IMG/VR virus record: IMGVR_UViG_3300020411_000765
Span: 1-28,654 of that record
DNA: 28,654 nt
DNA from: a virus
Reading direction: 5' to 3' (one strand)
This document shows positions 3,501 to 26,295 of this stretch, one piece after another. The first letter of the stretch is position 1, and each line of letters begins with the position of its first letter. A program made the position numbers and the translations under genes. The notes under the pieces are model-generated. The model saw only the letters and a list, made by a program, of their open reading frames with translations. It had not been told where the DNA came from and made no database searches.

Positions 3501-6500
3501 ATATTGAACCTCAGCATATGTTTCTACTTCATCTTTATTATCATTAGTAGAACTTGATGTGAATCTAATTGTCTTAACACCAGTAGTAAATCTAACTTCA
3601 CTAGCAGCACTATCATAAAGAACAGTATCTACATTACCTGTCCAAGTTGTATTTTCTCTAGGTGGTTGACCAGCAGGTATTAAAATAATACCACTAGCAT
3701 TACCATTCTCATCTGTAGTAATAGAACCATTAAAAGCAGATAAAGAATTACCAGCAATACCTGTATATCTTGTATCAGGACATACCCAACGAGCAACATC
3801 CTGTCCTTCCATAAAAGCAAATACTCTTGTATTAGGCTTAAGACGGTTAATTATATACTTAACTGGTACACTTCTTGCAAAGAAAGATAAAGAAGTAGAA
3901 ATTACACTATTACCAATACCCTTAGTATTGATTCCTTTACCAATCTCATTGTTTTGAGGACTAATATTTGAAGAACTAGAAACTGAAGCAGAAGTTACAC
4001 TTGAATCAGCAAGATTGCTATTAGTATCAGCAAATGATCCAATATTAAAGAATGCTCTATTAGCACCTATCCAATTAACTTTATAAGAATTGTAGAGACT
4101 TGATAAAGATTCTCTAACATTACTCTTCGCTAAAAATATAGAATAAAGATTTGTATTATTGTCTGTAACTAATGGTTCAATAGAATTGTCATACCATGAA
4201 TCTACATTAGGTCCAATAAAGGAATCACCAACATATTGAAGAACAACAAATGGGTTAGGATTAATTGTTTTAGTTGCAAATTCATTACCAAGTAATTTAA
4301 GTTCACTATAAGGAAGAGTTACACGATCTCCTTTTCTTCTATAACCAGCAGTAATTCTTTGATCATCTCTTGTATAAACTTCTTCTAATTTAAATGAATC
4401 TTCTTTAGATTCAGGTCTCATAACAGATTGTTGTGTATCAATAGAACATCTGTAATCAGTTGATCTTAATGATCCAATTTTATGTGCTTCAAAGTTATCA
4501 ACAATAAAACCACTCTTATAACGATTAGAACCAGCACTATCAACTAGTTCCATATTAAGTGCTTGCTGTTCAAGAATACTTAATGTTGTGTAATATTCTA
4601 GTCTCTCAATACGTTTCTCCAACTTACCAATGTCACGCATTGTGTAACGACGGTTATCAACTGGAGTAATTCTTACATCTTTATTTGTTTGAGTGTATGC
4701 AGGAATATACAAATATGCTAAAGGAATAGCATCACTAACAGGATCTGGTTTTGATGGGTTAAGAGAAGAATTACCTTCCTTAATAATAAAGGATCCTTTC
4801 TTATTCAAGAAGATACCATCAATTCTATCAAGATATTGTGTCTGTGTGAATGAGAATGTATATTCTAATCCAGCATCAGGAGCAGGTGTACTTGAAATAA
4901 TACCACCTGTACCTGTAAATGATCTAGTATTTGCTCCACCTAGAAGTGAATTATTCTGGAATCCAGAGATAATAGAATCATTATCTACTTTAGGTCTAAA
5001 ATCAAGAACATCTTTCAATGATACATTACCTAAAGCAGGTGAATTATAAGAAGGAATGTCACCAGCATCAATACCAGCTTCATGTAAATATGAATCTACA
5101 GTACAGAAATCCCCAGCTGTATGCTCAAAATAATCAAAAGCAACAACTAACTTTCCTGTTGGTGCATCAGCACCTGGTTTTAATACAATTCTTGAAGTAT
5201 CATATATGGTGTCTCTTTGACCATCATCAAATGTAAATCTACTAGTAACATCAGTACCACTAACAAGAGTACCATTTCTATCTACAGTAGGAGCATCTGC
5301 TGTAGATCCCATATAAACATATCTTAATTTGTAGACATCTGCATAACTGTATACACTAACAGATGTAGTATCATAATCTGTACCACGTAAAGGAATAACA
5401 CTATCACCAGCAGAATCAATAACAATCCTTTTATTAGTAACAGAAGTCTTAAGTCTTGGTTTTGCCTTAGTAACTTCTAATGTAGCTGTTAGTTTTAACG
5501 TCGGATACGTTGGGTTAGATGGCATAGTGCCAAAATACGTATCAGGAAGGTTCAAAGTAACACTACCAGAAGTCAAACCACTAGCAGAATCAACAGAAGA
5601 TGTAATACCTACTTGATCTGAAGTAATATAAATGACATCACCTTTAACAATATTTGGAGCAGATCCTGCATCAAGAATAGTAATTAGGAAATTACTCTCG
5701 GTAAATGAAACGAATCTTTGTGTTCCAAAATCCAACTGAGCAGCAAATGTAATATTTCCACCACTAGCAGATCCAGTACTTACAAAATCTCTTCTTAAAT
5801 AATATGCAATTTTAGAATCTGTACTACTTGCAACAAGTGAACTTACTTGATTAGTTCCTGTTTTATAAAGAAGACTTCCCTGATTAAAATTATCAATTGC
5901 AGGACGAACTCTAACAACACTACTATTACTTACATTAGCAGGAAGAGATCTATCCAAATAAATTCTTGATTTTAATACACCAGATGGTTTTGTAGCTTGT
6001 TGAACAATACCACGAATAGTTGTGTCATTTGTGTCACTAAACTGTATCAAATCTCCTTGTTGTAGTACTTTTGTACTATCGCCACCAAATCCATTACACT
6101 CAATAAACTTTCTACCTATAGAACCACTAAAGGTAAAATCAGTTACTGCCTTAGTTTCAGCATACTTCTCTCTATTAACTTCAACATCAGCAGTATACTT
6201 ATTACCTTGACCAGAACCAAACTCACAAAAGAATGACTTAACATTCTGTGGAGTATATGTAACAATAGAATCTCTTACAAGAACTGGTGTTACCACAGCA
6301 GGATCGCTAATTGCTGAACCACCACTTCCTTGTACTACATTAACAATAGGTGGTCTAGAATATTCTGTGTTAACAAGATCTCTATTTACAATAGCAGCAC
6401 TAATAATCTTTGTTCCACTAATTGTTAAATTAACTTTAGATATATCAAAATCAACACCATCAATTCTGAGTTTAGTTCCTGCTACATAACCAACACCTCT

Positions 6501-8747
6501 ATCATTAACAATAAAGTGTGAAATAGTATTATCTTTAGCAATTCTTAAAGTATTATTTCCTTCGTCTCTAATTGGTTCACCAGACTTAAATGTTCCAAAA
6601 AGAGTTTTTACCATCAAAGTTTTAGTGCTGGTATATGATTTACCAGAAGCACCTTCTACAACACCATATGCTCCACTTTGAAGACCATAAACATACTGAC
6701 CAGGTGTAAAACTATTAGCAACACTAATTGGATCGTCTAAAAGTATTTTAGTAAAGAATTGAGGATCAAAATATGATAATCCAAAAGTACTGTTATAAAC
6801 AGCATCTCCATTATCTTGACGACCTTTAGAAACTACTACATCTACATCTGGATTAAATCCATTTCCTTTTTCAATTAAAGTAACATTACTTGGTTTTGCT
6901 ATTCCAACAACAGGAGTAATTGTCTCATTATAATCAACAATTGTTCCAAATGGAGTAGATCCTGTATTCTTAACAGCTGTTTCTGTTAAATGAATTGCTC
7001 TATTCAGATCAGAAGCACCACTATCATATTCTATAAAGAATTGATCTAGATGATCTTTCTTACCAGTAACAGTAAGTTCAAGGAATGTATTAGATGTATT
7101 TGAATCAACTTCAATTCTATTTACAATGGACAACCCAATAGTAGAAACAGAACCAACTGTAGCAGGTACACCTGATTGATTTCTAGAAATAACAAACCAC
7201 AATGTAGGTATACCAGCTAATCTAGCATCATTATCAGTAGTTGCACTACCACCAAGAGCATCAATATTGATTGAACTATCAAGTTTTACATATATTGTTT
7301 TAATACCAGAATCAATATCAAAATACTGTCCTCTACGATCTAAAGTCTGCTTTATAGCAGTTTTTGTTTCTGTATTGTTTAATCCAATAGAACCATCGTT
7401 AAAGTTAGCACAAAGGAAAACATTTGGATAAGCAGTTAACTCAGAACCTTCAGTATTAAGAGGAACAGTTCCATATACATTATTGACTTTATATGTTGGA
7501 AGTCCAGCAGTCTTTAAACGAATATCAGACCTATCAAGAGTCTGTCTTGCCTTACCAAGTGTTAAATACTTTGTTTCTTTATTAACAATCTCGTATCCCT
7601 TAACATATGCTTTACCAGGACCAATGCTTGTTACTAACTTATCTGCTGCTTCTGTAGTAGTAAATCCATTTACCTTACCAGTAGCATCAGCAGAATATAC
7701 ACCTAAGTTACCACCATCTTGATAATATTCCCTAACGTCAATTGAAAAATTATCAACAACATAATCTCCAGATTCATCATATGTTCTTCTTGCAAGAGTA
7801 TTCTCAAGAAGATTGTAGTCTGTTTGTACTACTTGACTCTGTACAGAACCAGACTTAATACTTAATAATTGGATAAAATTCTTATCTGTAGTTGCAGTAT
7901 AACCATACTTAACTAAAGTAAGTGAAATCTTTAATCTATCTGCACCTGGAGCACTATAATTACTTGATCCAATAGAATTATCATAAAGAGAAGCATCTGT
8001 TTCTGCTGTCTCTAAGGTTTCTGTAATTTTAAATCCTACTTTATTAGATGGTTGATTGTAATAAGGATCAATTACTAAAAGTTGAGCAGCATTCCTTACA
8101 AAATATCCATTAACAAAATAAATTCCTTCTTCTACCTTAACAGCAGAAGCATATCCCATCGCATTGCTTGCTAATGACGACGATACACCTGTGTCAGGAT
8201 CAGTAATAGAAATACTAGTAGGAAGTACGCTTCCATCGGTTCCAACCACCATCAGTGGTGTATTAACGCCATCTACGACCTCTAGGGTCTCACCTTGTCG
8301 GAATGTATCCTCATTACCTGCATCACCACTATTTGTATAGTTAACATACACAACATCAGCAGTTGTATCTGTTGCTTTAGTTGCTTCTATTACAGTTGCA
8401 ATAACACCAGAAGTTAATCCTTTAAGATTCTGCCCTTTTAGTTGTGTAATATCATACTTCTTGTAAACTACATTCCCATCAACATTTGTAGGAATCTCAG
8501 ATACTGAAGATAATTTAACAAAAGGTAATTTTGTATTAAAACCAACCTCACCAGGTATGACAAGTTCACCTTGTTTAAAGGCATACTTACCAAAACTCTC
8601 TATTTGATTTTGCAGGACAGACTGTAACTGGGTTAACTCTCTCGCTTGGATTGAATATCCAGGCCGAAAGAGTACCTTGTAAAAGTTCTTATCCTGTGTA
8701 AAATCGTCGTAGTATGGAGCTACATTAAGGTTTGTCTTCTGAGGCAT
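549..8747 (-). CDS. giant DUF4815-type virion structural protein (2732 aa)
   Basis: The N-terminus (MPQKTNLNVAPYYDDFTQDK, then a conserved 'RPGYSIQARELTQLQSVLQ' segment within the first 65 residues) matches the DUF4815 family of large virion proteins of T4-like cyanophages. A probable coiled coil with Leu/Glu-rich 'EKRIERLEYYTTLSILEQQ' lies near residue 1380. The rest is Ser/Thr/Asn-rich and beta-like, with several G-x-G/A-Y-x-x-x-P-x-V modules near residues 630, 755, 800, 1965 and 2007. The C-terminus is a compact domain ending in 'VPKIQDLRAVASY'. It lies directly after gp8, where T4 carries gp9 and gp10, so a peripheral baseplate or fibre-connector role is likely. ATG at 8747 is preceded only by weak purine-rich sequence. 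No frameshift is seen over 8.2 kb. Confidence 0.78.
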   Translation of the reverse strand: MPQKTNLNVAPYYDDFTQDKNFYKVLFRPGYSIQARELTQLQSVLQNQIESFGKYAFKQGELVIPGEVGFNTKLPFVKLSSVSEIPTNVDGNVVYKKYDITQLKGQNLKGLTSGVIATVIEATKATDTTADVVYVNYTNSGDAGNEDTFRQGETLEVVDGVNTPLMVVGTDGSVLPTSISITDPDTGVSSSLASNAMGYASAVKVEEGIYFVNGYFVRNAAQLLVIDPYYNQPSNKVGFKITETLETAETDASLYDNSIGSSNYSAPGADRLKISLTLVKYGYTATTDKNFIQLLSIKSGSVQSQVVQTDYNLLENTLARRTYDESGDYVVDNFSIDVREYYQDGGNLGVYSADATGKVNGFTTTEAADKLVTSIGPGKAYVKGYEIVNKETKYLTLGKARQTLDRSDIRLKTAGLPTYKVNNVYGTVPLNTEGSELTAYPNVFLCANFNDGSIGLNNTETKTAIKQTLDRRGQYFDIDSGIKTIYVKLDSSINIDALGGSATTDNDARLAGIPTLWFVISRNQSGVPATVGSVSTIGLSIVNRIEVDSNTSNTFLELTVTGKKDHLDQFFIEYDSGASDLNRAIHLTETAVKNTGSTPFGTIVDYNETITPVVGIAKPSNVTLIEKGNGFNPDVDVVVSKGRQDNGDAVYNSTFGLSYFDPQFFTKILLDDPISVANSFTPGQYVYGLQSGAYGVVEGASGKSYTSTKTLMVKTLFGTFKSGEPIRDEGNNTLRIAKDNTISHFIVNDRGVGYVAGTKLRIDGVDFDISKVNLTISGTKIISAAIVNRDLVNTEYSRPPIVNVVQGSGGSAISDPAVVTPVLVRDSIVTYTPQNVKSFFCEFGSGQGNKYTADVEVNREKYAETKAVTDFTFSGSIGRKFIECNGFGGDSTKVLQQGDLIQFSDTNDTTIRGIVQQATKPSGVLKSRIYLDRSLPANVSNSSVVRVRPAIDNFNQGSLLYKTGTNQVSSLVASSTDSKIAYYLRRDFVSTGSASGGNITFAAQLDFGTQRFVSFTESNFLITILDAGSAPNIVKGDVIYITSDQVGITSSVDSASGLTSGSVTLNLPDTYFGTMPSNPTYPTLKLTATLEVTKAKPRLKTSVTNKRIVIDSAGDSVIPLRGTDYDTTSVSVYSYADVYKLRYVYMGSTADAPTVDRNGTLVSGTDVTSRFTFDDGQRDTIYDTSRIVLKPGADAPTGKLVVAFDYFEHTAGDFCTVDSYLHEAGIDAGDIPSYNSPALGNVSLKDVLDFRPKVDNDSIISGFQNNSLLGGANTRSFTGTGGIISSTPAPDAGLEYTFSFTQTQYLDRIDGIFLNKKGSFIIKEGNSSLNPSKPDPVSDAIPLAYLYIPAYTQTNKDVRITPVDNRRYTMRDIGKLEKRIERLEYYTTLSILEQQALNMELVDSAGSNRYKSGFIVDNFEAHKIGSLRSTDYRCSIDTQQSVMRPESKEDSFKLEEVYTRDDQRITAGYRRKGDRVTLPYSELKLLGNEFATKTINPNPFVVLQYVGDSFIGPNVDSWYDNSIEPLVTDNNTNLYSIFLAKSNVRESLSSLYNSYKVNWIGANRAFFNIGSFADTNSNLADSSVTSASVSSSSNISPQNNEIGKGINTKGIGNSVISTSLSFFARSVPVKYIINRLKPNTRVFAFMEGQDVARWVCPDTRYTGIAGNSLSAFNGSITTDENGNASGIILIPAGQPPRENTTWTGNVDTVLYDSAASEVRFTTGVKTIRFTSSSTNDNKDEVETYAEVQYYATGLIPENPSSIVSTSPSFFKSNEGTQLTGSNTANPIRPNPLAQTFKVENFDGGVFTTGLDLFFSTKSDKIPIRVYLTDVDNSKPGKNIIPGTQKVLTPDTYLRVIASANLNVTKAEKVTGATSNASGPISRVFDKNGLELTATSAGVFTLLNDQVYTLVLDNHNGVSFQQDENLTIPSLTLANNTNNTTNTLKISKDSGRVTDLKVTATGSAYDSAIVTIESPQNPGGGTATATVRVSGGKVYHSELVLSGSEYTEPPAVIITGTGTGNAGATIESVVTIDSPAVRMGIAIDDATTTAVNSTTPTKFEFDYPVYLQNDTEYALVLETDSIDYLVWASKLGETEIATSTTVTTQPALGSLFKSQNTNAWTEDLFEDLKFKLYRAEFDTSRTASLLLTNEDLGYESLDVNPIETNAGSNTAATSSLFKNNNLKVKINHSDNGFDGSGKSYVFFKGTVNVGGITASRLNSDLYQVTNNGVDHYIITTSNRAASNISGGGTNVLASYNRKFEKIHAIVPNISFSQTKLDSTLKTTNIAPVDDNVGTFASYTQSAYEKTFLNEDFFFVNQKVIASRINTTLNTKQDLIADGRSLTYNLELSSQVSHLSPLVDLSRASIKTITNRVEHATGSEDRFGRRDQILEFYPVYSFTITNTVSGTDVDPPGVNLQGLQTVTGMTSNASGSIVKVNGSELTVNVKTTNTFTPGEGLKFSNQTALNPDAGTPTTPKVTVSNASITEQIPTFPNTTAVTKVIAVSPDSFSTNYTDKIDGTIVLWDNKAGELTVTNDKQPINDDYTTKSGTGSFVRNSSNTAQVVDIFRVNDIITYTGQAADEISWIQVSKVSYTNGIDYVSDTKSKDSSTIAKYVTKEVAISNPATGINVKITANTSDINNIGLLYRIKKSSSQENFEDIEWVNFNTTGLPDKDTIATSENSISGITEKQSSYQELSYSVEDLPEFSSFAVKLVMKSRNPAYVPKIQDLRAVASY

Positions 8748-10541: not shown

Positions 10542-13500
10542 TTACGCACTTCTGAAGTAGTCACCTGCGGTATGTGCAATGGCAGTCGTTCCATTAGCAC
10601 CCCGTGTACATCCTGTAAAGCGATCACTTAACTTACCAGTGTAAGTAATCTGTTCGGTTCCTAGTTGTAAGGTTCCCGAAGCAGGGAAATCTGAAGTAGA
10701 TGCTGCATAGACAATAACGTCTCCAGCAACAAGGTTCTGGTTAATCCTACCCATGTAATTATTAATAGATGGGAATGCTACATTGAACGACACTCCACCA
10801 CCAGAAACACCCGAACCTGACCATTCTCTGAAATCTGTTGGATTAAATCCCCAATTAGTAATTTCTGCAATAGTCAATGCGGAAACTGATACACCATTAT
10901 GTAGTATATTACCAGTATCCATAAATTTCGCACTTTCCCACATTAAGAAAGATGGTCTTAATGTTATATCAGCAAATCCAGCAGGAGGATTAGTCCACGC
11001 ACGATGATCAACAAATCCCAAATAGTACTGGAACGATCTTCCAACTTGAATAGTACTTTGTTGACTACTTGCTGAAAGTGTATCTGGTTCAATATGTACC
11101 TTGATAACAGGATCTGTTGATGGGGTAGCAGAAAGATCAATCTGAATATCTTGAGGTGTTATTAATAATTCGTGTGAAACTTCTAATGAACCTGCTGTAT
11201 CTATACCTATAGAATCAACAGTAATAGTAAATTTACTTATTCCCACTCCAGTAGGAGCATATACTACACCAGTAATAGCACCAGTTGGATTAAGAGATCC
11301 ATTAGTAATCTTACTAATATGACTTTCCGCATTAACTGGTCCTGGTTGCGAAACACTAGAAGTTTGATTATGTAAAATTAAATTTACAAAAGAATCAATC
11401 TTTCTATCTTTCCTCTTTATAAGATCATATTGTTTAGCAACAACAACTTTAGGTGCCTTTGTATATCCAGAACCACCATCTACCAATATAATATCAAGAA
11501 TATCTCCACTATTATCAACAATAACTTGTGCTCTTGCTCCACCACCTTGTTGATTCTCAGGAATGAAGTGTAAAATGGGTGCATCAAAATAACCAGATAC
11601 CGATACATTCTTATCCCATGTAATTGTATCTACTTTACCACCAGAAACAGTACAACTAACACTAAGACCTATTCCTCTCTCTTCACCATTATAATTTGTT
11701 GAAGTAACAGATCCAAAGAAATTATGAGATGGGTCATCACCTGCATTATAAGTCTTAGGTGTAAAATATTGAGGTAACTTGTTAATAGTCCTATATTCAT
11801 CCTCACCACTAACTTTAATAAGATCACCAGTATTCAAATTAGCAGAAAGATTATTTTTAACATAGAATGATTCATCTGCCTTTACAGATCCATATAACCA
11901 TCTAGTTGCATTTCTCTGCATCTTATAATCATTATCAGAATCTTTAATAACATCAACTGTAAATGATAGATTAAGTTCAATTTCATCACTAAAATCTTTT
12001 AATCCAGAGAAGTATACCTTACCAGCAGTTGTATCAGGATTTCTTCCCGAAATTTGAATTGTTAAATCATCAGAACTATCAATACTATAAGACTTCATAC
12101 TACCAATTATCTTCTTTTCATCACCAGACTTCTGGTATGCAATCATATCTTCTTCAAAAAACTTACCCCACCAATTTTCAAAAGCAGTGAAAGATCCACT
12201 AGTACCATCAAATTTAAGATTTATCTCATTATAATATTCAGCACCTTCATAATCATATAAAGTTATACTTTGATCAAGGTCTCTACCATAAAGATGTATC
12301 AATTCAACATTACTCTTTGGATATATCTTGTCATCAAAAATAATTGTTGGACCATTAATATTATAAGAATCTTCTCTTTGTAGAACACCGTCTATAAAGA
12401 CCAACATGAATCTACCATCAGTAATATTAACAACTTCTTTATCTGAAGATCTTGAGATTAAGAAAGGACCAACAGATCCTGAAGTAACATCAGAATTATT
12501 AAGTTCACACCTATAATAATTTCCAACACCATATGCAAAAAACTTATCAACTGCTAATGGTTCACCTAAAGTCTTTGTGTTTGGTCCTTGACCCCAAAGA
12601 GGAGGACTTGTAAATACAACCTTATTTGGTACAGATGATCTATCAATACTATAAGCAGAATCATGTTGAATAACTCCAGATATACCAATCAACAAATCTT
12701 CATTAGGATCTAAAGCAACACCTATACCATCTTCATAATACAAATCAAAGATCTTATTCTTACCATCAATATAATCTGGATAAGATAAAGTTACTGATCC
12801 AGGTCCACCACTAAAGATTGATCTTATTACTCCAGCAAGAGTAGTTAGAGCAGATTCAACATCTGCACACTTAGGAGAACTATCTGCTAATATATTAATA
12901 TTGGCATAAGGTGCTACAGTTGTATAAGTTCCAGTTGGCAAATCATTCCGCATTGCCTTTTTAGCAAGTTCAACAGCATACTCATATGCTTCTAGTGTCT
13001 CTTCTTGCTCTCCTTGGATATAATCAAGGATATCATTATTAAAATACTTCTCAATCGCCTCTACGATGCCCTGGTTGCCTCCAAACCTTAAATCATGTGA
13101 TAATGCATCTACAATGAATCCAATGTCTCTAGAACACTTAACAGAAAGAGTACCCCATGTTAACGTAGGAAACTTATTCCTAATATAACCAAGAGTTTCA
13201 CCCTGAATATATGCTCTATTCTGTTCAAGTTGATTAGCAGCATCAATCCATCTACCATTTCTCTGGTATATGTTTCTAATCTTCTTAAAATACCTTGAAT
13301 TTAAACTATCAGTCTTGAACTGATAATTCTTGCCATAGAATCTAACTCCAGGAATTGATTGTGAATTTTTTGTAGATGGTCCAAGTGGTGGTTGAGCAAA
13401 TGTTATATTACTTCCAGATAGAGTATATGCAACTCCAGGTTCTTGGAATATACCATCAAGAGTAATCATCAATGCCTGTTCATTATATGGAGTAACTACA

Positions 13501-16500
13501 TTATTGTTATTATCACGAATTCCAAAAGTTTTAGTTCCTGATAAATTGCCTTTATTAGATAAAGCACCATCAAAAGCAGGAGTTAATTTAATATTCTTAG
13601 ATAATATCTCTGTTGTATTTGCAGAATCAATGGATACAGATCCAACACCCTGTTCAATTAATTGAGATTCTGTTGATACAATATATTGAGTAACTGTTTT
13701 AGTAACACTTTCTACTTTAATATCAGATTTAAGTTCTATAAAACTATTGTGAGTAGTTGTTGAACTATTGCTCATTGGTATTTCAGCAGAAGTTTCAATA
13801 TCAACTTCGCCAAATACTTTAAATCCAGATGGATGTGTTGTTTCTTTTATTAAAGATCTCCAAGTATTAATTGGAGTTTTTGATTTTATAAGATACGAAT
13901 AATCTTGATAGTAATTAGAATCATGTATCCTTTGATTTGCATCACCTACTTTACCAAGATCGGAAGTATACTTTCCAATATTATCAAAATATGTTTTAAT
14001 AACAGGAGTAAATTCAGTGTAACTTATATTATCAAGAGTTGCTCGTTTACCTTTTGCTAAACCAATAATTTGTTGATTCTCTCTAAAGATTCCAGTAACT
14101 CTATCAACAACAAGAATATTAGATCCCTTTCTCCAAGAAGTTACTCTAGCTCTTGCAATTTCAGTTGCTCCAGATCTTTGAACTATTGTTTCACCAACGT
14201 CATAAGAATCACTATCAAATCCAGACAATTTAAAAATATAATTTGATCTAACATTTGATTTTATTGTTTGATCACTATGATAGGAACCACCATTAGTATC
14301 AATTTGAATACTACTTGGTATACCAATATCTGTACTGTTCAAGAAAGCAGATACTGTATTATCAATATTACCATCTTTATCATAAACACCAGTTACAATA
14401 GGAACTTTTTTATAGTCTCTTCCTATATTACTAATTTTTAAGGAATTAATCTCTCCAACAGAAGATGAAGATTTTGAGATATATTTAATTGTTCCTGTAC
14501 CATCATTGAGAGATTTGGTATCTGTTGAATATAGAATTTTAGTTGGAGTCACATATAGAGAAGTTTTTTCTCCTTGCAGAGGATCATTAATAATATTAAA
14601 ATAAGAATGCTCTGAATTAACTACCCCATCTCTATCATAATAATAATATTTCGTATATGATACACCTCTTTTAACACTATAAGTATTAGTTGAAGTTCTT
14701 GTTCCAAACCCCAACTTAAGATCAACAATATTTCCTGATATAGTTCTTTCTGGAGTAACAAGATTAAAGCTTCTACTAGGAGAAATATCAAAACCAACTC
14801 CACTCATTGAAACATGAGATATATCAAAATTATATTTGTAATACTTTCGTACATCAATATTTGGATTTCTTGTAAATGTAGTATTATCAGAAGAGAACTC
14901 AAAATAAGTATCTGGAGCAGTAAATGATACTAATTGAACTAATTTCTTATCAGCACTATTATCATAGAATACAGTATTAAGATCTAACTTATTAATAGTT
15001 GCAGTTGTTTGATCATAATCCCATGCAAAAACTGCCTTTTGTGTAGTTGAATTATATGATACAATTTTCGCATCTTTAGAAGTAGCACCAGTAGCATGAT
15101 TAACTGGAAGTGTATATCCAAAATCATATACAGAAACAATAGCACCATTAAAATGATCAAGTGCTGAGGTAGATTCCTCTGCCCTTCTAACAGTTAATGC
15201 AGTACCACTCTTAGAAAGTACAGTAACAATTTCATTACCAATCTGTAATTTGTCATTAACAGTGATATTATCTGTATTAACAACATTCAAAACTGTGTTC
15301 TGAATGGAGAATCCTACATGATCTACACTTAATTGAAGATCTGGCTTAGTAGATCCTCCTGTTTTACTCAATGCAGTACCAGAAACACTAAGAACATCAA
15401 ACTGTTTATAATCTTTTCCCTTGGAAGTGATATTAATACTATTAACAAGACCAGCAGATGATACAACAATAGTTGCTTTGGCATCTGATCCAGATCCACC
15501 AGATAGTGCAATGTCGGTATATGTACCAGCAGTGTAGTCACCACCACCATTTAAGATACCAACTCTACCAACTCCAGTATCGCTGAGAGTCGTTGATATG
15601 ACTGGGTTCTTAAGGACTGCTTCTTGATAAACTCTCTTTCTTACATACCAAGTTGTTGTAGATTCCGCATCACTTGGATTGATATCAATATTAATCTTTT
15701 CTCCTATAGCAACACCATGTGCATCTGCTGTTGTTAATATAGCGACATTATCCTGAACTTTGAATGGAGTTAAATTTTCACTTAAAGAACTAAAAGAAAC
15801 TATCTTTGATCCAGTAGTATTAACAAGATTAGAACTTGTCAAATAAAGAGTATCAGAAACAGAGAAAATACCAGTTAAGACTTTAATCTTAACACTATTT
15901 TGATCATTGGTTGTTTCAAGAACAGTAGCAGTTGCTGTAGCAGCATTTATACCATCTCCAAATGTAAGAGTAGCACTCTTACTATAAGAAGATTTCTTAT
16001 CCAATATTAAATTTAATACCTTGGTATCTGATGATAGTACATCTGTACTATTAAAGGTTCCAGATACATTTCTAAGAGCAAATTTCTTAGCAGAAAATAC
16101 ATTACCAACTATGCTACCAGTAGCACCAGTATTTGCCTGTGTAATAGTACCACCATCAAATAGATAAGCACTATCACTAAGTTCAATATACAGTGCTTTG
16201 ACAGACTGAGATTCAATAGATGATACAGTTCTTCCTTTAACAGATTCAACTTCTCCAGCAGCATCAGACCCCTCTGTATCAGAATTATCAATTACTAATC
16301 CACCACCTACTGAAAAATTAGATCCACTACTAATAATTGTAGCAGATGATACAGTTCCTCTAGTTACATCCTTAACTTTAGCAAGTGTTTTAACACCATT
16401 TCTGCTAATACCAGAAGTTCTCAATCTATTTGCACTTACTGGCAAATCATCTTGAGTCATCTTAGAATTGTAATTAGAGTCTAATGGCAATGAATAATAG

Positions 16501-18998
16501 TTATTTCCTAGAATATATGGAAATCTAGGATCACCAGAAGAATCTACTGTAATAAAGTATGCGTATGTTCCATCAGGATATTCTGGTGTAACACAGAAAC
16601 GTCCATTATTCTGATCTAATGTTCCCGATCCATCTGTAAATACCCAATCCTGTATAAAAGTTCCAACAGGATATGTTGTAGTAGAAGGACCATCAGGTCT
16701 AGTAGTATTACCAAGATAACTAGAAGTCATCTGTGTGACAGTACTAGAACTGTCTAGTGGGTCTGTATAACCATAGGCACCATATATGGGGTTACCATCA
16801 TATGCAAACCCTAGAATAGGAGAATGATTAGTTCCAGTATCAGTTGTCCTTAATATAGTAGGGGATGCATAATAACCATAACCATATCCTTTAGCAATAT
16901 CAAAGTTATGGAACCTGTAACCATTATTAGCATCTAATAAATTCTTATTCTTGTAATATTTGTCCTTTCTCCACTCTTTAACTGTAGCAATTGCACCTGC
17001 TCCAGATCCTACTGTAAGAACATCAACCTTTATATTCTCTTGTGTATAATAATTACCACCATTAACCTTAATAAACCCAGTAATAGCACCAGCAGTACTA
17101 ACAGTAGTAGTATATTCCGCAAACCTACCTTTTCCTGCGGAATCTGTAATTCTTACAATAGGAGGAGTTGAATAATACTCACCTGCACTGTTAATAGTAA
17201 TACTAGTAACTACTCCATTAGTAACAACAGCAGTACCAGTACCATTTCTGCCAGATACAATTTCTACTGTAGGAACAGCAGTATAATCTCCAGCATCAGT
17301 AATGGTTATAGATTCTACAGTCTCACCAGAACGATGTGATATTGCCTTACCAACGAGACCATTTACTAATACGAAAGGATCATCCTTATATCCACTACCT
17401 TTGGTATTAACAGTAATTTTTTGTAGAGGTCCATCTAAAATGACATCCTCATCCTTATAGCTTACAAAAGGAATACCATTAACAGCGATACCAACATCTC
17501 TATACTTAGTCTCATATATCTCAGTAGTAGAAATTGGATTCTTTCTAATAATCTTTAATTGCTTCTGATCTTTAAGATCAGCAGATGTCATATTATTTGC
17601 AAGATTATGACTTGGTAATCCAGAAGATGCTATATAATAACCTTCCCCGTCTTCATAGATAGCGGATACATTACCATTAAGATCTGCAAGAGTAGCAGCA
17701 TTTCCTCCAATTGTCCATCTAAGATTATTCTGAGCATCAAATAATTTTACATCAGTCGTTGTAAATCCAGGATCAGATATCTCAAGAATATCACCAGGAT
17801 TTGAATAAGGTGCTTCTATCTTATTAACTGCATTATAGAATACACCGTATACAAGAAGAGTTACAGTAGAACCAGATACATTTGCACCATAAGTTACTGG
17901 AGTTCCTATAGCATGAGTTCCAGTACCATCTCTTGTCTTTATAACAAACTGATTAACATTCTTATCTTCAAATGTAAACTTCTCACTACCAATAGTAAAT
18001 TCACCTTTCTTATTCCACCCCATTGTGGATTCTACATCAATCACATCACCAACAGTATCATTAGTAGTGATAGACTCAGTTAATTTAGTTCTCGCAGCTG
18101 TGGAAAACTCTCCATTCACACTTGCTTCGTTAAGTATGATCTCATATAACTCTTCTCCATCATACTTACCATCATAACGTACATTATCAACAACAGCAGA
18201 AGCATATGTACCACTGGTTTGTGTAATCTTTTTACCAATAAGATCTGTTACCGTACCTGATAAAACTTTAACTTTAAGTGAATAGTTATTCACCCAAGTA
18301 GAATCAGAACTCTTTAATGTAAAATCTCGTGGATATGCAATTTCTGGTTCGGGATCATCCTTAACCAAACACTTAAATAAGAATTTAACAGACTTATCAG
18401 TTCCTTTTGATTGATAGAAAGAACCTATGTTTTTAATAAGAGTCCTTTTATCAACTGATGCATTTAAATATTCTTCTGGAAAATCTACTAGATATTCATT
18501 TTCAAAATTCTTAATTAAAGCATACAAAAAGAGATTACTAATATTAAGTACCTGAGATCCATTGGTATGACTGGATGCTTGGGTAGTAACAAATGTACTA
18601 GTAGAATAAAGATCTCCTAATTTTGTATTACCACTTACACCACGACTAATTTCTTTAAACTGAGTATCTGTTCTACTCTTGTAAAAACAGATCTCATCAT
18701 CTATCTTGAAGTATCCACCATTCTTAGGAAATGATGAAGCATCTGCTACTGTTATAGTGGTATCGCTAGAATTTACAAGTCCAATGAGAGTTGTACTTTG
18801 ATTTAAAAGATTATTCTCATAAAAATCAATATCACGATATGTTGAAAGATTCTCAACAATATCATATGGTTGACCTTGTAATTCTAACTGCGCATAATAC
18901 TTTTGTATGAACTTTCCAAACAGTTCATACTCTTCATTGATAAAATCAGGTAATTGCTGATCAACTAAAAAGGAGATCTTATTCGCAGTTTTAGGCAT
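10542..18998 (-). CDS. gp7: giant gp7-like baseplate wedge protein (2818 aa)
   Basis: The N-terminus (MPKTANKISFLVDQQLPDFI, then 'EEYELFGKFIQKYYAQLE') resembles cyanophage gp7, and the gene sits between gp6 and gp8 as in T4. T4 gp7 is 1032 aa, so this protein is nearly three times longer. Near residues 720-860 is a YHYH-type domain ('HSPILGFAYDGNPIYGAYG' to 'FPYILGNNYY'). Near 1900-1975 is a helical segment ('GRWIDAANQLEQNRAYIQGE', then 'CSRDIGFIVDALSHDLRFGG') that recurs in marine phage structural proteins. G-x-G-Y-x-x-P-x-V modules lie near 543, 575, 610 and 2509. A second module ending in an 'RG..GT.A.AH..G' pattern occurs at about 75-150, 310-370, 1235-1290 and the last 60 residues. The gene starts 2 bp after the gp6 stop. 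The gp7 name rests mainly on the N-terminus and gene order. Confidence 0.72.
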   Translation of the reverse strand: MPKTANKISFLVDQQLPDFINEEYELFGKFIQKYYAQLELQGQPYDIVENLSTYRDIDFYENNLLNQSTTLIGLVNSSDTTITVADASSFPKNGGYFKIDDEICFYKSRTDTQFKEISRGVSGNTKLGDLYSTSTFVTTQASSHTNGSQVLNISNLFLYALIKNFENEYLVDFPEEYLNASVDKRTLIKNIGSFYQSKGTDKSVKFLFKCLVKDDPEPEIAYPRDFTLKSSDSTWVNNYSLKVKVLSGTVTDLIGKKITQTSGTYASAVVDNVRYDGKYDGEELYEIILNEASVNGEFSTAARTKLTESITTNDTVGDVIDVESTMGWNKKGEFTIGSEKFTFEDKNVNQFVIKTRDGTGTHAIGTPVTYGANVSGSTVTLLVYGVFYNAVNKIEAPYSNPGDILEISDPGFTTTDVKLFDAQNNLRWTIGGNAATLADLNGNVSAIYEDGEGYYIASSGLPSHNLANNMTSADLKDQKQLKIIRKNPISTTEIYETKYRDVGIAVNGIPFVSYKDEDVILDGPLQKITVNTKGSGYKDDPFVLVNGLVGKAISHRSGETVESITITDAGDYTAVPTVEIVSGRNGTGTAVVTNGVVTSITINSAGEYYSTPPIVRITDSAGKGRFAEYTTTVSTAGAITGFIKVNGGNYYTQENIKVDVLTVGSGAGAIATVKEWRKDKYYKNKNLLDANNGYRFHNFDIAKGYGYGYYASPTILRTTDTGTNHSPILGFAYDGNPIYGAYGYTDPLDSSSTVTQMTSSYLGNTTRPDGPSTTTYPVGTFIQDWVFTDGSGTLDQNNGRFCVTPEYPDGTYAYFITVDSSGDPRFPYILGNNYYSLPLDSNYNSKMTQDDLPVSANRLRTSGISRNGVKTLAKVKDVTRGTVSSATIISSGSNFSVGGGLVIDNSDTEGSDAAGEVESVKGRTVSSIESQSVKALYIELSDSAYLFDGGTITQANTGATGSIVGNVFSAKKFALRNVSGTFNSTDVLSSDTKVLNLILDKKSSYSKSATLTFGDGINAATATATVLETTNDQNSVKIKVLTGIFSVSDTLYLTSSNLVNTTGSKIVSFSSLSENLTPFKVQDNVAILTTADAHGVAIGEKINIDINPSDAESTTTWYVRKRVYQEAVLKNPVISTTLSDTGVGRVGILNGGGDYTAGTYTDIALSGGSGSDAKATIVVSSAGLVNSINITSKGKDYKQFDVLSVSGTALSKTGGSTKPDLQLSVDHVGFSIQNTVLNVVNTDNITVNDKLQIGNEIVTVLSKSGTALTVRRAEESTSALDHFNGAIVSVYDFGYTLPVNHATGATSKDAKIVSYNSTTQKAVFAWDYDQTTATINKLDLNTVFYDNSADKKLVQLVSFTAPDTYFEFSSDNTTFTRNPNIDVRKYYKYNFDISHVSMSGVGFDISPSRSFNLVTPERTISGNIVDLKLGFGTRTSTNTYSVKRGVSYTKYYYYDRDGVVNSEHSYFNIINDPLQGEKTSLYVTPTKILYSTDTKSLNDGTGTIKYISKSSSSVGEINSLKISNIGRDYKKVPIVTGVYDKDGNIDNTVSAFLNSTDIGIPSSIQIDTNGGSYHSDQTIKSNVRSNYIFKLSGFDSDSYDVGETIVQRSGATEIARARVTSWRKGSNILVVDRVTGIFRENQQIIGLAKGKRATLDNISYTEFTPVIKTYFDNIGKYTSDLGKVGDANQRIHDSNYYQDYSYLIKSKTPINTWRSLIKETTHPSGFKVFGEVDIETSAEIPMSNSSTTTHNSFIELKSDIKVESVTKTVTQYIVSTESQLIEQGVGSVSIDSANTTEILSKNIKLTPAFDGALSNKGNLSGTKTFGIRDNNNNVVTPYNEQALMITLDGIFQEPGVAYTLSGSNITFAQPPLGPSTKNSQSIPGVRFYGKNYQFKTDSLNSRYFKKIRNIYQRNGRWIDAANQLEQNRAYIQGETLGYIRNKFPTLTWGTLSVKCSRDIGFIVDALSHDLRFGGNQGIVEAIEKYFNNDILDYIQGEQEETLEAYEYAVELAKKAMRNDLPTGTYTTVAPYANINILADSSPKCADVESALTTLAGVIRSIFSGGPGSVTLSYPDYIDGKNKIFDLYYEDGIGVALDPNEDLLIGISGVIQHDSAYSIDRSSVPNKVVFTSPPLWGQGPNTKTLGEPLAVDKFFAYGVGNYYRCELNNSDVTSGSVGPFLISRSSDKEVVNITDGRFMLVFIDGVLQREDSYNINGPTIIFDDKIYPKSNVELIHLYGRDLDQSITLYDYEGAEYYNEINLKFDGTSGSFTAFENWWGKFFEEDMIAYQKSGDEKKIIGSMKSYSIDSSDDLTIQISGRNPDTTAGKVYFSGLKDFSDEIELNLSFTVDVIKDSDNDYKMQRNATRWLYGSVKADESFYVKNNLSANLNTGDLIKVSGEDEYRTINKLPQYFTPKTYNAGDDPSHNFFGSVTSTNYNGEERGIGLSVSCTVSGGKVDTITWDKNVSVSGYFDAPILHFIPENQQGGGARAQVIVDNSGDILDIILVDGGSGYTKAPKVVVAKQYDLIKRKDRKIDSFVNLILHNQTSSVSQPGPVNAESHISKITNGSLNPTGAITGVVYAPTGVGISKFTITVDSIGIDTAGSLEVSHELLITPQDIQIDLSATPSTDPVIKVHIEPDTLSASSQQSTIQVGRSFQYYLGFVDHRAWTNPPAGFADITLRPSFLMWESAKFMDTGNILHNGVSVSALTIAEITNWGFNPTDFREWSGSGVSGGGVSFNVAFPSINNYMGRINQNLVAGDVIVYAASTSDFPASGTLQLGTEQITYTGKLSDRFTGCTRGANGTTAIAHTAGDYFRSA

Positions 18999-19000
18999 CC

Positions 19001-20809
19001 CTACTCTTCTTTATATGCAACGAATTTACTCTTTGATATATCTACATCCAAATACATCTCACGCTTAACTTCTATATCCTTATTAGCAGGTTTTACTCTT
19101 AATTCAATACGATTATCAGAGAAAGTTCCTTTTAATATAGTGAAGTCAGTCATTGTTATCTCACCTTTATCATAATCTACAATTCCTATTGAATCATTCA
19201 ACAGAATCTTCTCACCAGTAATAGAATCTAGTCTATATAGTACCAATTTACCACTTCTATCCTCTAAGTAAGAAGTGACATTGGGATATTCAAAAACTGT
19301 CATACCAGTTGATGTAACAACTGGATTGTTACAATCAATTAAGAAAGGATTGCCATAACACACTTCATAGTATGAAGATGAATTAATCTGTGCAATAAAA
19401 TCCTTTCTCATAGTAACATCAGTATCATTTGAATTGATAGAACGATCTGCGCTATCAATTACAGTAATAAACTTACTATATCTAAATTTCCCATTAAATT
19501 TTTCGGTTCCAGAGGTCTTAAGATACTCTGTTACTGTAGATGATGCTTTTGCTGCTATTTCTGCTGGGAGAAACTTAGTTTTATTAACATCATAGTAAAT
19601 ATTACTTGTTAATTCCAAATAAAGAATAGAAGGATCAACAAATTCTGGTCTAATAGATGCAACTGTGTGCTTTTTAAGCTTATCTTTTAGATCATTTTTA
19701 GTAAATGCTGACAATGAAGCAGCTTCAGTGGGTTTGATAGAAAGAAATACCTTACCATATGCAGGTGGAACCTGATCTTCCCCACCAAATACAATAATAT
19801 CACTAATAGATGGGTATAAATTCCTAACAATTGCTTTATAATCGTTAGCAGTTACTGCTCTATTCTGAGATCCATAGAATTTAGGAGCATTAAACTTAAT
19901 TTTATCAATACTCTCAATTGCTGCACCACCTGATGCAACTGAAGATGTTGTTATTGAGGTAATTCCGAATGGTGTAGTTACTGGAGTACCGTTTTGATCC
20001 TCTAAAAGACCATTAAATGTAAATGTTCTTGCTCCATTTGTTACATCACCATTAGTAACCACATAACTTATTTGAACTACATTGCCATCATTAAGTTTTT
20101 TACCTAAAACACCATCCCCAAAGAAGATCTCATAGTTCTCATCTTCGGTTTCACTAATAAAGAACACTTTATCAGTAGAACCAATATCTAATATATTACT
20201 TGCAACAGCATAATCATCATATACAGAAGAATTAGCAGATTCAAATACCTTTACACTAACTGTATTAGTATCAACTCCATTATTCTCAATAATAAACCTT
20301 TGATTATTAAGAGTTGAATCAACCGTAGTATTAGTTGTAATTTGAGAACCTTCATATATTGAAAGTTCTGTAAATGATGCTATATTATTAGCAACTGATA
20401 CTTTTGTATCTTCTGTTAATATAAAACGATAGAGAGAACCATCATAATTGCTTACAAACCCACTTCCTGCCTTTAAAGTCACTGATGAAGGAGTATTGCC
20501 ACCAGTAAAGGTAAGCACAAGATCAACAACTGCTTTAGGTGATGTAATTGACTTGGGTGTATATCCTAATTGCTTTGCAAGAGACACTACATTGTCCCTC
20601 AGAGTAGCAGAATCAAGGAACATCTCATTTACTACCATGTTGGTATTAAATGCGGTGTAGTACGTATTATATGCTAGTACGTCAAGTATATTACTTAATG
20701 CAGAACCTTCAAAATCATAATCAGTGAAATCGGTCTGTGCTCTCATATAGTCTCTGAGAGCAGTTTTAATATCTGTGAAGTCTAAATTGTTTAACTGGGT
20801 ATATGGCAT
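19001..20809 (-). CDS. gp6: baseplate wedge subunit gp6
   Basis: This 602-aa protein begins MPYTQLNNLDFTDIKTALRD and continues with 'YDFEGSALSNILDVLAYNTY', the conserved N-terminal region of T4-like gp6 (660 aa in T4). gp6 forms the inner ring of wedges around the hub, linking gp7, gp25 and gp53. The middle ('VTANDYKAIVRNLYPSISDI', about residues 325-345) is the baseplate J-like core. Translation is coupled to gp25: the shared TAATG puts the gp25 stop and gp6 start on one overlapping base. AGGA in the last gp25 codons gives the ribosome site. The full length is open, without defects. Confidence 0.9.
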   Translation of the reverse strand: MPYTQLNNLDFTDIKTALRDYMRAQTDFTDYDFEGSALSNILDVLAYNTYYTAFNTNMVVNEMFLDSATLRDNVVSLAKQLGYTPKSITSPKAVVDLVLTFTGGNTPSSVTLKAGSGFVSNYDGSLYRFILTEDTKVSVANNIASFTELSIYEGSQITTNTTVDSTLNNQRFIIENNGVDTNTVSVKVFESANSSVYDDYAVASNILDIGSTDKVFFISETEDENYEIFFGDGVLGKKLNDGNVVQISYVVTNGDVTNGARTFTFNGLLEDQNGTPVTTPFGITSITTSSVASGGAAIESIDKIKFNAPKFYGSQNRAVTANDYKAIVRNLYPSISDIIVFGGEDQVPPAYGKVFLSIKPTEAASLSAFTKNDLKDKLKKHTVASIRPEFVDPSILYLELTSNIYYDVNKTKFLPAEIAAKASSTVTEYLKTSGTEKFNGKFRYSKFITVIDSADRSINSNDTDVTMRKDFIAQINSSSYYEVCYGNPFLIDCNNPVVTSTGMTVFEYPNVTSYLEDRSGKLVLYRLDSITGEKILLNDSIGIVDYDKGEITMTDFTILKGTFSDNRIELRVKPANKDIEVKREMYLDVDISKSKFVAYKEE

Positions 20810-21201
20810 TATCTCGTCCTACTTAAGAACAGTTCTACAGCAATTGGTGGATCATCTGAACCTACTATTTCATACGTCAGTTCAACTTCAAATCCGTTTT
20901 GATCATAGTTTGGACTTGTATCTATTGATATAACAGTAATTCTTGGTTCAAATTCAGTTAAGGTGTTTTGAATACTGGATGACACCTGACCTGCTGTAGC
21001 ATAATCTAATGGTTCAAACAAATAACTTCTTATATTAGATCCATAATCAGGATTAAAAGGTCTTTCTCCTTTATTGGTCAACAATAAATTTACAATTGAC
21101 TGCTTAATAGCAGAAGCATCCCTACTAACAACTAAGTCATTAGTAACAGGATGCTTCTTAAAAGTAATATTAATGTCCTTGAAGGACAACGTGGCCGCCA
21201 T
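20809..21201 (-). CDS. gp25: baseplate wedge subunit gp25 (lysozyme-like fold family)
   Basis: The length of 130 aa matches T4 gp25 (132 aa). The signature 'GERPFNPDYGSNIRSYLFEP' near residues 45-64 and the 'EFEPRITV' segment near residue 90 are diagnostic of the gp25/TssE family; the EPR triplet is the conserved core that contacts gp6 in contractile systems. It caps the wedge core and helps start sheath assembly. The start is ATG at 21201, shortly after the SET-domain gene ends. Its stop overlaps the gp6 start (TAATG), so the two wedge proteins are made together. Confidence 0.92.
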   Translation of the reverse strand: MAATLSFKDINITFKKHPVTNDLVVSRDASAIKQSIVNLLLTNKGERPFNPDYGSNIRSYLFEPLDYATAGQVSSSIQNTLTEFEPRITVISIDTSPNYDQNGFEVELTYEIVGSDDPPIAVELFLSRTR

Positions 21202-21231: not shown

Positions 21232-21516
21232 TTAGACAGTATAAAACGTATATTTAAGCGTAAGCTCTTCTCCAACGTGTATTTGCTTTAAAGTTTTGAC
21301 GAAATACTTATCCTCTTCTTGCCATTTCACGCAATTAGGGTCGTCACTATGATTAATGAACCCTCCCAAGGGAGTCCTATAGATGACCTCATCAACGATA
21401 AGGTGAGACATACCTAAAACCATCCCCACTGGTATCTCCTCACGTGCAAAGATGCCCTGCCCTGCTATAGGAGAGTCTTTAATATGGAGCCACGAATGCA
21501 ATGCTTGATATGTCAT
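21232..21516 (-). CDS. compact SET-domain protein, probable lysine methyltransferase
   Basis: This 94-aa protein is almost nothing but a SET fold. Visible motifs, in the order expected for the family, are 'IAGQGIFAREEI' at residues 17-28 (AdoMet-binding GxG), 'GFINHSDDPNC' at 52-62 (the NHSxxPN core) and 'GEELTLKYTFY' at 82-92 (motif with the catalytic Tyr region). There is no pre-SET or Cys-rich post-SET region. The small size resembles viral vSET of Paramecium bursaria chlorella virus (119 aa), which methylates histone H3. It sits inside the late baseplate operon, upstream of gp25, so it is expected to be made late. Its substrate is unknown; a virion protein or a basic phage or host protein are possibilities. 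Methyltransferase activity is inferred from the motifs. Confidence 0.8.
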   Translation of the reverse strand: MTYQALHSWLHIKDSPIAGQGIFAREEIPVGMVLGMSHLIVDEVIYRTPLGGFINHSDDPNCVKWQEEDKYFVKTLKQIHVGEELTLKYTFYTV

Positions 21517-21552
21517 GATCTTTCGGAGATTTTCGGCGTTCGGAGCACCGCC

Positions 21553-21690
21553 CTATTTTCCCTGTCCTCTATAACGCTTCCTAGCATGATTCCTAGAAGA
21601 CGCAGAAAGCTTCGTATTCTGCGAATTACCCTGACGAGTCTTCTTAGGTTTAGCAGGTACGTGCAAACTAGAATTATTATATAAAGCCAT
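21553..21690 (-). CDS. small basic conserved cyanophage protein (45 aa)
   Basis: The reading frame encodes MALYNNSSLHVPAKPKKTRQ, then a Ser/Asn-rich middle and 'RNHARKRYRGQGK' at the end. It is strongly basic (Lys/Arg) with no obvious hydrophobic core, so nucleic-acid contact or assembly on an acidic partner is plausible. I recognise similar 'MALYNNS..HVPAKPKKTRQGN' peptides in T4-like cyanophages, always without a known function. The start is 3 bp after the stop of the PAAR-like gene and the end is 36 bp before the SET-domain gene, so it belongs to the late operon. Function unknown. Confidence 0.75.
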   Translation of the reverse strand: MALYNNSSLHVPAKPKKTRQGNSQNTKLSASSRNHARKRYRGQGK

Positions 21691-21693
21691 AAA

Positions 21694-22056
21694 TTAAGGA
21701 TTCTGTATGTTTATTGTAGTATAATTATACGGTCCTGTCAAGGGTCTGTTAGTACCAGGAAATTGTGCTAAATCCCCCGAAACAGCGGGTAACTTTCCAT
21801 TGATAAAAACAGTCGTATTCACGCTAGGAACTATGGTACGTATCCCAGGTTGACACGGTAATGGTACAACAGGATTAATCTTCACCCCATCAACATTATC
21901 TACCTGAGAAGTACTGTCATAATACTCTACCTGTTCATTCTCAAAGTAGACATTAGGAGAAGTATGTGGAGAACCACCTAATGCTTTAGCAGGATACAAA
22001 CAATTACCATCTGTACTTGATGTATCCAAACAATCGCTAGATGCTATATTAGGCAT
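21694..22056 (-). CDS. PAAR-like / gp5.4-like tail-tip protein (tentative)
   Basis: This 120-aa protein is rich in Pro, Asn, Thr and Gly. The C-terminal half contains 'TTVFINGKLPAVSGDLAQ' and 'GTNRPLTGPYNYTT', which resemble the repeated beta turns of PAAR-like proteins that sharpen the tip of contractile tails (T4 gp5.4). Two Cys lie in the first 20 residues and a third lies mid-protein, but a clear metal-binding His/Cys set is not evident. ATG at 22056 has GGAGA eight bases upstream and lies inside the last codons of the 72-aa gene (8-bp overlap), so translation is coupled. The position among baseplate genes supports a tail role. The PAAR assignment is a resemblance, not a firm family match. 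Confidence 0.5.
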   Translation of the reverse strand: MPNIASSDCLDTSSTDGNCLYPAKALGGSPHTSPNVYFENEQVEYYDSTSQVDNVDGVKINPVVPLPCQPGIRTIVPSVNTTVFINGKLPAVSGDLAQFPGTNRPLTGPYNYTTINIQNP

Positions 22057-22922: not shown

Positions 22923-22930
22923 TATTTATA
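22923..22930 (-). promoter_or_regulatory. T4-type late promoter (TATAAATA) for the baseplate operon
   Basis: A perfect TATAAATA on the minus strand, 59 bp upstream of the 162-aa gene. No other exact octamer was seen in the gaps between here and gp8, so this one promoter probably serves the genes down to the gp7-like protein, about 12 kb. The AT-rich leader carries a small inverted repeat at 22901-22915 (CAAATT-ATG-AATTTG). Confidence 0.82.
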
Positions 22931-25958: not shown

Positions 25959-25981
25959 GTGTCAGTTCTTAAACTGTCCAC
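25959..25981. repeat. palindromic early box 4
   Basis: The minus strand reads GTGGACAGTTTAAGAACTGA, the same 18-base run as plus-strand box 6 but inverted. The core is centred at 25969.5. It includes the TAA stop of the 108-aa gene. Confidence 0.72.
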
Positions 25982-26295
25982 GCTTTGACTTGTTTTACCA
26001 ATTGAGCGTGATACGGTGTTACTAGGTCAAAACCTTTTCTCAAGTCCTTGCCTAGTTCTTGGATCTCATACTGATGGATTGCCCATCTAGTCTGAATGTC
26101 CTTGACGTAGCGATCAACTGAAATGAGATTTCTTGTTGATGGACGCTTGAGAGTGGTCACCTTAGCAACTGGTTTGCCACCTTTGAAGGTTGTGACTGTG
26201 ACCTTAGAAACTTGAGGTTTCTTCGCTGCTGCTTTTCTTGCCCTTGGTTTGCGTGTTGCTTTCTTAGGGGCAGTTGAAACAGTTGCAGTTGGCAT
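25969..26295 (-). CDS. 108-aa protein with histone-H1-like basic N-terminal tail
   Basis: Residues 1-30 ('APKKATRKPRARKAAAKKPQ') are a Lys/Arg/Ala/Pro tail of the kind found in linker histones and bacterial histone-like proteins such as AlgP or Hc1. Residues 30-55 remain basic, and 55-108 form a probable helical domain ('VDRYVKDIQTRWAIHQYEIQ', ending 'LVKQVKAWTV'). DNA or RNA binding is likely from composition; it could compact or protect phage DNA or alter host transcription. It stands alone behind a strong extended -10 (GTGTATAATAG) and ends within palindromic box 4. The 'ARK' context in the tail is notable given the SET-domain gene in this window. Confidence 0.68.
   Translation of the reverse strand: MPTATVSTAPKKATRKPRARKAAAKKPQVSKVTVTTFKGGKPVAKVTTLKRPSTRNLISVDRYVKDIQTRWAIHQYEIQELGKDLRKGFDLVTPYHAQLVKQVKAWTV

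Follow-up and report, generated by a model that had tools for sequence, protein, structure and literature searches.

The window, that is, the whole stretch of 28,654 nucleotides analysed here, carries on its minus strand a run of genes in the order PAAR-like protein, PHROG 516 protein, SET-domain protein, gp25 and gp6, followed by larger genes. The SET-domain protein, referred to below as mini SET, is a stand-alone domain whose open reading frame has an ATG start. The features of the locus are given from upstream to downstream.

25969..26295, minus strand: 108-aa protein with a Lys/Arg/Ala-rich N-terminal tail, weakly H1-like, a candidate substrate only (Pfam HC2, 0.0012, below the cut-off; PHROG 27005)
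22923..22929, minus strand: ATAAATA resembling a late promoter, located ahead of the gene run to which SET belongs (sequence match)
21694..22056, minus strand: PAAR-like protein (PHROG 11361, by PHROG search; weak PAAR match)
21553..21690, minus strand: 45-aa Lys/Arg-rich protein, PHROG 516 (451 phage records match this family); upstream edge of the slot discussed below
21517..21552, minus strand: intergenic stretch immediately ahead of SET, containing a CCGA repeat (CTCCGAACGCCGAAAATCTCCGAAAGATC; CCGA counts)
21232..21516, minus strand: mini SET, 94 aa plus stop, PHROG 28741 (Pfam, PHROG, AlphaFold2 model, Foldseek)
21454..21462, minus strand: GQG codons (aa 19-21), SET motif I, the AdoMet-binding GxG (conservation in 61 sequences; alignment with vSET and MLL1)
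21346..21378, minus strand: RTPLGGFINHS codons (aa 47-57), family signature including the NHS catalytic motif (conservation in 61 sequences)
21250..21273, minus strand: GEELTLKY codons (aa 82-89), which form motif IV; Tyr89 is presumed to be catalytic (E84 and Y89 invariant)
20809..21201, minus strand: gp25 baseplate wedge, bounding the slot on its downstream side (Pfam GPW_gp25, 6.5e-18; PHROG 261)
19001..20809, minus strand: gp6 baseplate wedge (PHROG 219, 8e-203)

The gap between SET and gp25 is 30 bp, and gp25 overlaps gp6; both baseplate genes are backed by Pfam and PHROGs, so the placement of SET directly upstream of them, as given in a preliminary description of this DNA, is correct. 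The cyanophage setting proposed there also holds: the neighbouring genes are of T4-like cyanophage type, and the closest isolate relatives of the window's gp6 come from Synechococcus phages (58-59% identity), which makes a cyanobacterial host likely. The heptamer upstream resembles NATAAATA, the cyanophage late promoter (PMC2984593), and in the window phage SET is probably transcribed late together with the baseplate genes. Downstream of gp6 lie two very long genes on the same strand (549-8747 and 10542-18998, encoding 2732 and 2818 aa). The 45-aa reading frame between the PAAR-like gene and SET was missing from the preliminary description. It shares one frame with SET in the window (21235-21690, minus strand), with one TAG and 12 sense codons between them; a PHROG 516-SET fusion made by stop-codon readthrough was considered and rejected, because frame relation and distance differ across loci.

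Assignment of the 94-aa protein to the SET family follows from several searches. Against Pfam SET (PF00856; E=4e-12) it reaches 46.8 bits, the curated cut-off being 22.4 bits, and it is matched over its full length by PHROG 28741 (E=2e-43), a family whose listed function is unknown. All three motifs named from the sequence alone, GQG, NHSDDPNC (aa 55-62) and GEELTLKY, are present. In an alignment of 61 phage and bacterial relatives G21 is invariant and G19 at least 90% conserved; R47, T48, P49, G51, G52, F53, N55, H56 and S57 are invariant, as are E84 and Y89, and H38 is a further invariant mark of the family. GQG pairs with the GxG of vSET and MLL1, and the HMMER alignment sets N55 against vSET N69 and Y89 against vSET Y105. 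A profile built from the 61 relatives finds SET enzymes among PDB sequences with E-values down to 6e-10, vSET (1n3j) among them at 3.7e-9.

Structure prediction, proposed in the preliminary description, returned a confident SET fold. The AlphaFold2 model, computed from an alignment of mini-SET relatives with the isolate-phage rows left out, has a pLDDT of 92.9 and a pTM of 0.81, and only residues 92-94 fall below a pLDDT of 50. Foldseek returned 244 PDB matches at E <= 0.001, of which the 50 listed consist entirely of SET domains, PR domains and complexes of these; the best are MLL1 SET structures and vSET of a chlorella virus (3kma: TM 0.78 by query length and 0.70, rmsd 2.2, 26% identity). 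In a viral library the model finds its neighbours among SET proteins encoded by phages and by giant viruses. Fold and catalytic motifs, as modelled and aligned, are thus those of a SET domain, and the earlier reading of an apparently intact, minimal methyltransferase with no flanking domains is borne out by profiles, motifs and model alike.

The comparison with vSET (PBCV-1 A612L; PDB 1n3j and 3kma), also suggested in advance as a precedent for so small an enzyme, is apt in fold: both are tiny single-domain viral SET proteins, and the vSET GxG, N-H-S and Tyr105 correspond to G19/G21, N55-H56-S57 and Y89. In length the two differ: vSET has 25 more residues, most of them in SET-I and in the tail at the C-terminus. 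The segment separating the aligned blocks counts 15 residues in mini SET against 33 in vSET, which leaves SET-I about 18 residues shorter in mini SET, and the post-SET tail is nearly absent, with five residues modelled at low confidence. With SET-I and tail so short, substrate binding would have to differ. The gene is under purifying selection: median dN/dS is 0.179 over 237 pairs, near the 0.157 of gp6, which indicates a working gene.

A scan of IMG/VR found 125 stretches encoding mini-SET relatives, and 80 of these were kept for comparison of loci. gp25 is present on the retrieved stretch at 61 of the 80; eighteen carry no baseplate marker there, and one further locus is cut by the contig end. 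Settings away from the baseplate include sugar-nucleotide and glycosyltransferase genes, a primase with a high-light-inducible protein (a different phage type), ribonucleotide reductase, and 2OG-Fe(II) oxygenases. Some relatives sit on contigs without gp6, and where SET carriers do encode gp6, its identity to that of the window ranges from 35 to 97%. Only a handful of phage isolates carry SET, among them P-RSM6, P-SSM7 and Pelagibacter phage Kolga. No relative was found in the isolates P-HM2 and Syn9. P-RSM6 has the gene in the baseplate slot. In P-SSM7, PHROG 516 at 51.6 kb is followed directly by gp25, with gp6 by 52 kb, and SET lies at 164 kb, after nrdA and nrdB and some 112 kb from gp6. 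The SET tree is built from few columns and leaves many forks unresolved; on it, context switches between baseplate and non-baseplate nine times among phage copies and sixteen times over all classes. One non-baseplate copy (L009) is nested within baseplate copies by a starred branch, and the P-SSM7 copy groups with baseplate copies at 99/99. Across the 80 loci and P-SSM7, then, the SET gene does not stay with the baseplate genes.

The site that SET occupies in the window was surveyed separately by sampling PHROG 516 loci irrespective of SET, which gave 139 unique PHROG 516-gp25 junctions; this sample is biased toward loci resembling the two sequences used as queries and should not be read as a census. 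Junctions of 120 bp or less account for 26 of the 139, and 71 exceed 400 bp. The reading frames within them form 33 clusters, SET being one and occurring in eight junctions; other cargo includes a ferredoxin, a heme oxygenase, SpeD (S-adenosylmethionine decarboxylase), a DUF2470 protein and a 2OG-Fe(II) oxygenase. Near isolates show the same variety: S-H9-1 has a 2OG-Fe(II) oxygenase there, ACG-2014e has a gene annotated as PurM, and in S-RIM44 gp25 comes immediately after PHROG 516. The junction is a cargo site of cyanomyoviruses, and SET follows the pattern of accessory cargo: sporadic, exchanged with unrelated genes at one site, and present at several sites. Mobile cassettes with carbon-metabolism genes are known at other cyanomyovirus sites, and the cassettes of T4-like cyanophages likewise shift among syntenic core genes (PMC3037559); the present case differs in its site, PHROG 516-gp25, and in its cargo, a SET enzyme.

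A CCGA repeat (CTCCGAACGCCGAAAAYTCCGAA) directly precedes both SET and non-SET cargo of this slot, as seen at L165, L191, L206, L194, L148, L151 and L173. Two or more CCGA units occur in 44 of 62 gaps upstream of SET, and none where SET overlaps PHROG 516. The repeat is possibly a cassette boundary or a regulatory tag.

Relatives also occur in cells. A scan of cellular genomes found 25 loci; several lie among ordinary chromosomal genes, and others resemble phage contigs binned with bacteria. One contig assigned to a Euryarchaeota MAG (L090) is a piece of cyanophage-like DNA on which SET, gp25 and gp6 are encoded. Short SET proteins of marine bacteria (L089, L093, L094, L098, L099, L102, L104, L105, L109 and L112) are 38-64% identical to mini SET, belong to the same length class and share RTPLGGFINHS; unlike the phage copy, they are chromosomal and sit in lineage-specific operons. 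Gene names beside the chromosomal copies come from reading the translated neighbours rather than from profiles. On that reading, a SAR11 copy (L089, 93 aa, 64% identity) lies near ccm, ftsY and dapF genes, the Flavobacteriaceae copies (L093, L094, L097) are embedded in an arginine/proline operon, argG-argC-SET-proC-argD-argF, and those of Porticoccaceae (L099, L105, L112) follow fabA-fabB. L089 is the only close relative in SAR11, where most genomes covered by the search (38 of 53 with any match) encode a different, longer SET protein of about 160-185 aa (e.g. L120). Among Flavobacteriaceae, 11 of 251 genomes match at E <= 1e-15. For Cyanobiaceae the figure is four of 251 genomes, one match lying on a phage-like contig and three being weaker; an origin from the cyanobacterial host was rejected, since the family is almost absent there. 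The SET gene moves horizontally between marine phages and bacteria. No characterised member was found among the short SET proteins of marine bacteria.

What does such an enzyme modify? The hosts of mini-SET phages are bacteria without canonical histones. Fold comparison places vSET among the best matches of mini SET, and the full-length sequence relatives are phage and bacterial proteins. vSET, the classic small viral SET protein, methylates H3K27 of its eukaryotic host's histone (PMC3089700). On balance, and with guarded confidence, we take mini SET to be a mobile, single-domain, AdoMet-dependent protein-lysine methyltransferase that would act in trans on a non-baseplate protein, probably one of the host. 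It would bind AdoMet through the GxG and NHS motifs, Y89 would work in the lysine channel, and the target lysine would be methylated in trans. The favoured target would be a Lys-rich host protein, such as a nucleoid or translation protein; a host target is preferred because relatives are also carried by bacterial chromosomes, which offer no phage protein to act on. Against this reading stand the shortened SET-I and tail, the presence of gp25 with most phage copies, and the four bases by which SET overlaps the PHROG 516 stop codon in 12 of 62 loci. The slot could favour genes that act on neighbouring products.

A broader proposal, in which the targets of methylation by mini SET during infection are Lys-rich proteins resembling histone tails, from the phage or the host nucleoid (PHROG 516, the H1-like protein or host HU), seems rather unlikely to us as framed. 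Were it true, it would add a protein-methylation layer to host takeover or genome packaging, a bacterial parallel to vSET in algae. Slightly less likely again is its narrower form, in which the enzyme modifies PHROG 516 or the H1-like protein at 25969-26295 and so alters DNA or protein binding in the virion or the infected cell. Both proteins are Lys/Arg-rich. PHROG 516 lies immediately upstream of SET in most phage copies, in translational overlap at the loci just counted, and its core, PKK[TS]RQG..[HN][TS]K.SA[TS]SRN..KKRYRGQG, keeps several lysines. Relatives of the H1-like protein occur at L061:261-572 and L085:4188-4574 and in AG-345-P14. There is precedent as well: Chlamydia cpnSET is reported to act on the H1-like Hc1 and Methanosarcina Go1-SET on MC1-alpha, both Lys-rich DNA-binding proteins (PMC3980110). 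By description, these enzymes resemble mini SET, as interpreted here, in being lysine methyltransferases of the SET type that belong to cells lacking canonical nucleosomes; the RTPLGGFINHS signature, by contrast, is the mini-SET family's own. Against PHROG 516 as the target, the family is matched by several hundred phage records, yet SET is found in few isolates; its lysines show the same degree of conservation in 87 core sequences from loci lacking SET as in 48 from loci that have it, giving no sign of co-evolution; and the complete genome of Kolga has SET and lacks PHROG 516. Nor do the chromosomal bacterial relatives have a partner of either kind. Both neighbours remain candidate substrates, PHROG 516 without support from co-evolution.

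The preliminary description took the place of SET in a baseplate operon as a pointer to its substrate, and the survey does not support this: the site is a cargo slot that many other genes can fill, and SET lies at a different site in P-SSM7, among the sugar genes of cyanophages, in the primase/high-light-inducible phage type and in bacterial chromosomes. That mini SET methylates gp25, gp6 or their neighbours during baseplate assembly would account for its position directly upstream of the two genes in the window and most relatives. In most phages, however, the slot is short or holds unrelated cargo, SET lies far from gp6 in P-SSM7 or on contigs without it, and the gp6 proteins accompanying SET are widely diverged. 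Occurrence in baseplate-free bacteria and unrelated phage types makes a baseplate substrate improbable, and a baseplate-specific role was dropped as the leading reading after the context tree and the junction survey.

We consider it just as doubtful that mini SET is a catalytically dead fold kept for binding, as an AdoMet sensor, a protein-binding module or a decoy. Shortening of SET-I, the substrate-binding part, and near loss of the post-SET tail would fit such a role, but motif I, NHS and the motif-IV tyrosine are kept almost without exception across 61 diverse members, as would be expected if the enzyme were active. Least credible of all is methylation of a small amine or free amino acid in an active site left open by the missing SET-I, which the short SET-I and two metabolic-operon settings (argC-SET-proC and fabA-fabB-SET) would suit, but chromosomal settings vary by lineage and we know of no precedent in which a SET enzyme takes a small molecule as its substrate.

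Phage SET genes have already been named in public records; a literature search reaching few of the subscription journals found no paper on SET in cyanophages or marine phages. What is new here is the identification of PHROG 28741, a family to which mini SET belongs over its full length, as a compact SET clade with shortened SET-I, together with its mobility between marine phages and bacteria and the PHROG 516-gp25 cargo slot. A function class is thereby supplied for an unannotated marine phage family (T4-like GC 716 in P-SSM7), and a compact SET enzyme is seen to move between phages and bacteria. Because isolates with the gene exist (P-RSM6, P-SSM7 and Kolga), the substrate question can be taken to the bench, and because marine picocyanobacteria nearly lack the family, methyl-lysine that depends on SET would, in infected cells, be the work of the phage and could be detected directly. 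One Cyanobiaceae genome (G225) encodes a 212-aa protein (L115:1477-2115) that looks like two tandem mini-SET units; in the first of them the NHS motif is degraded (FNYSKSKN).
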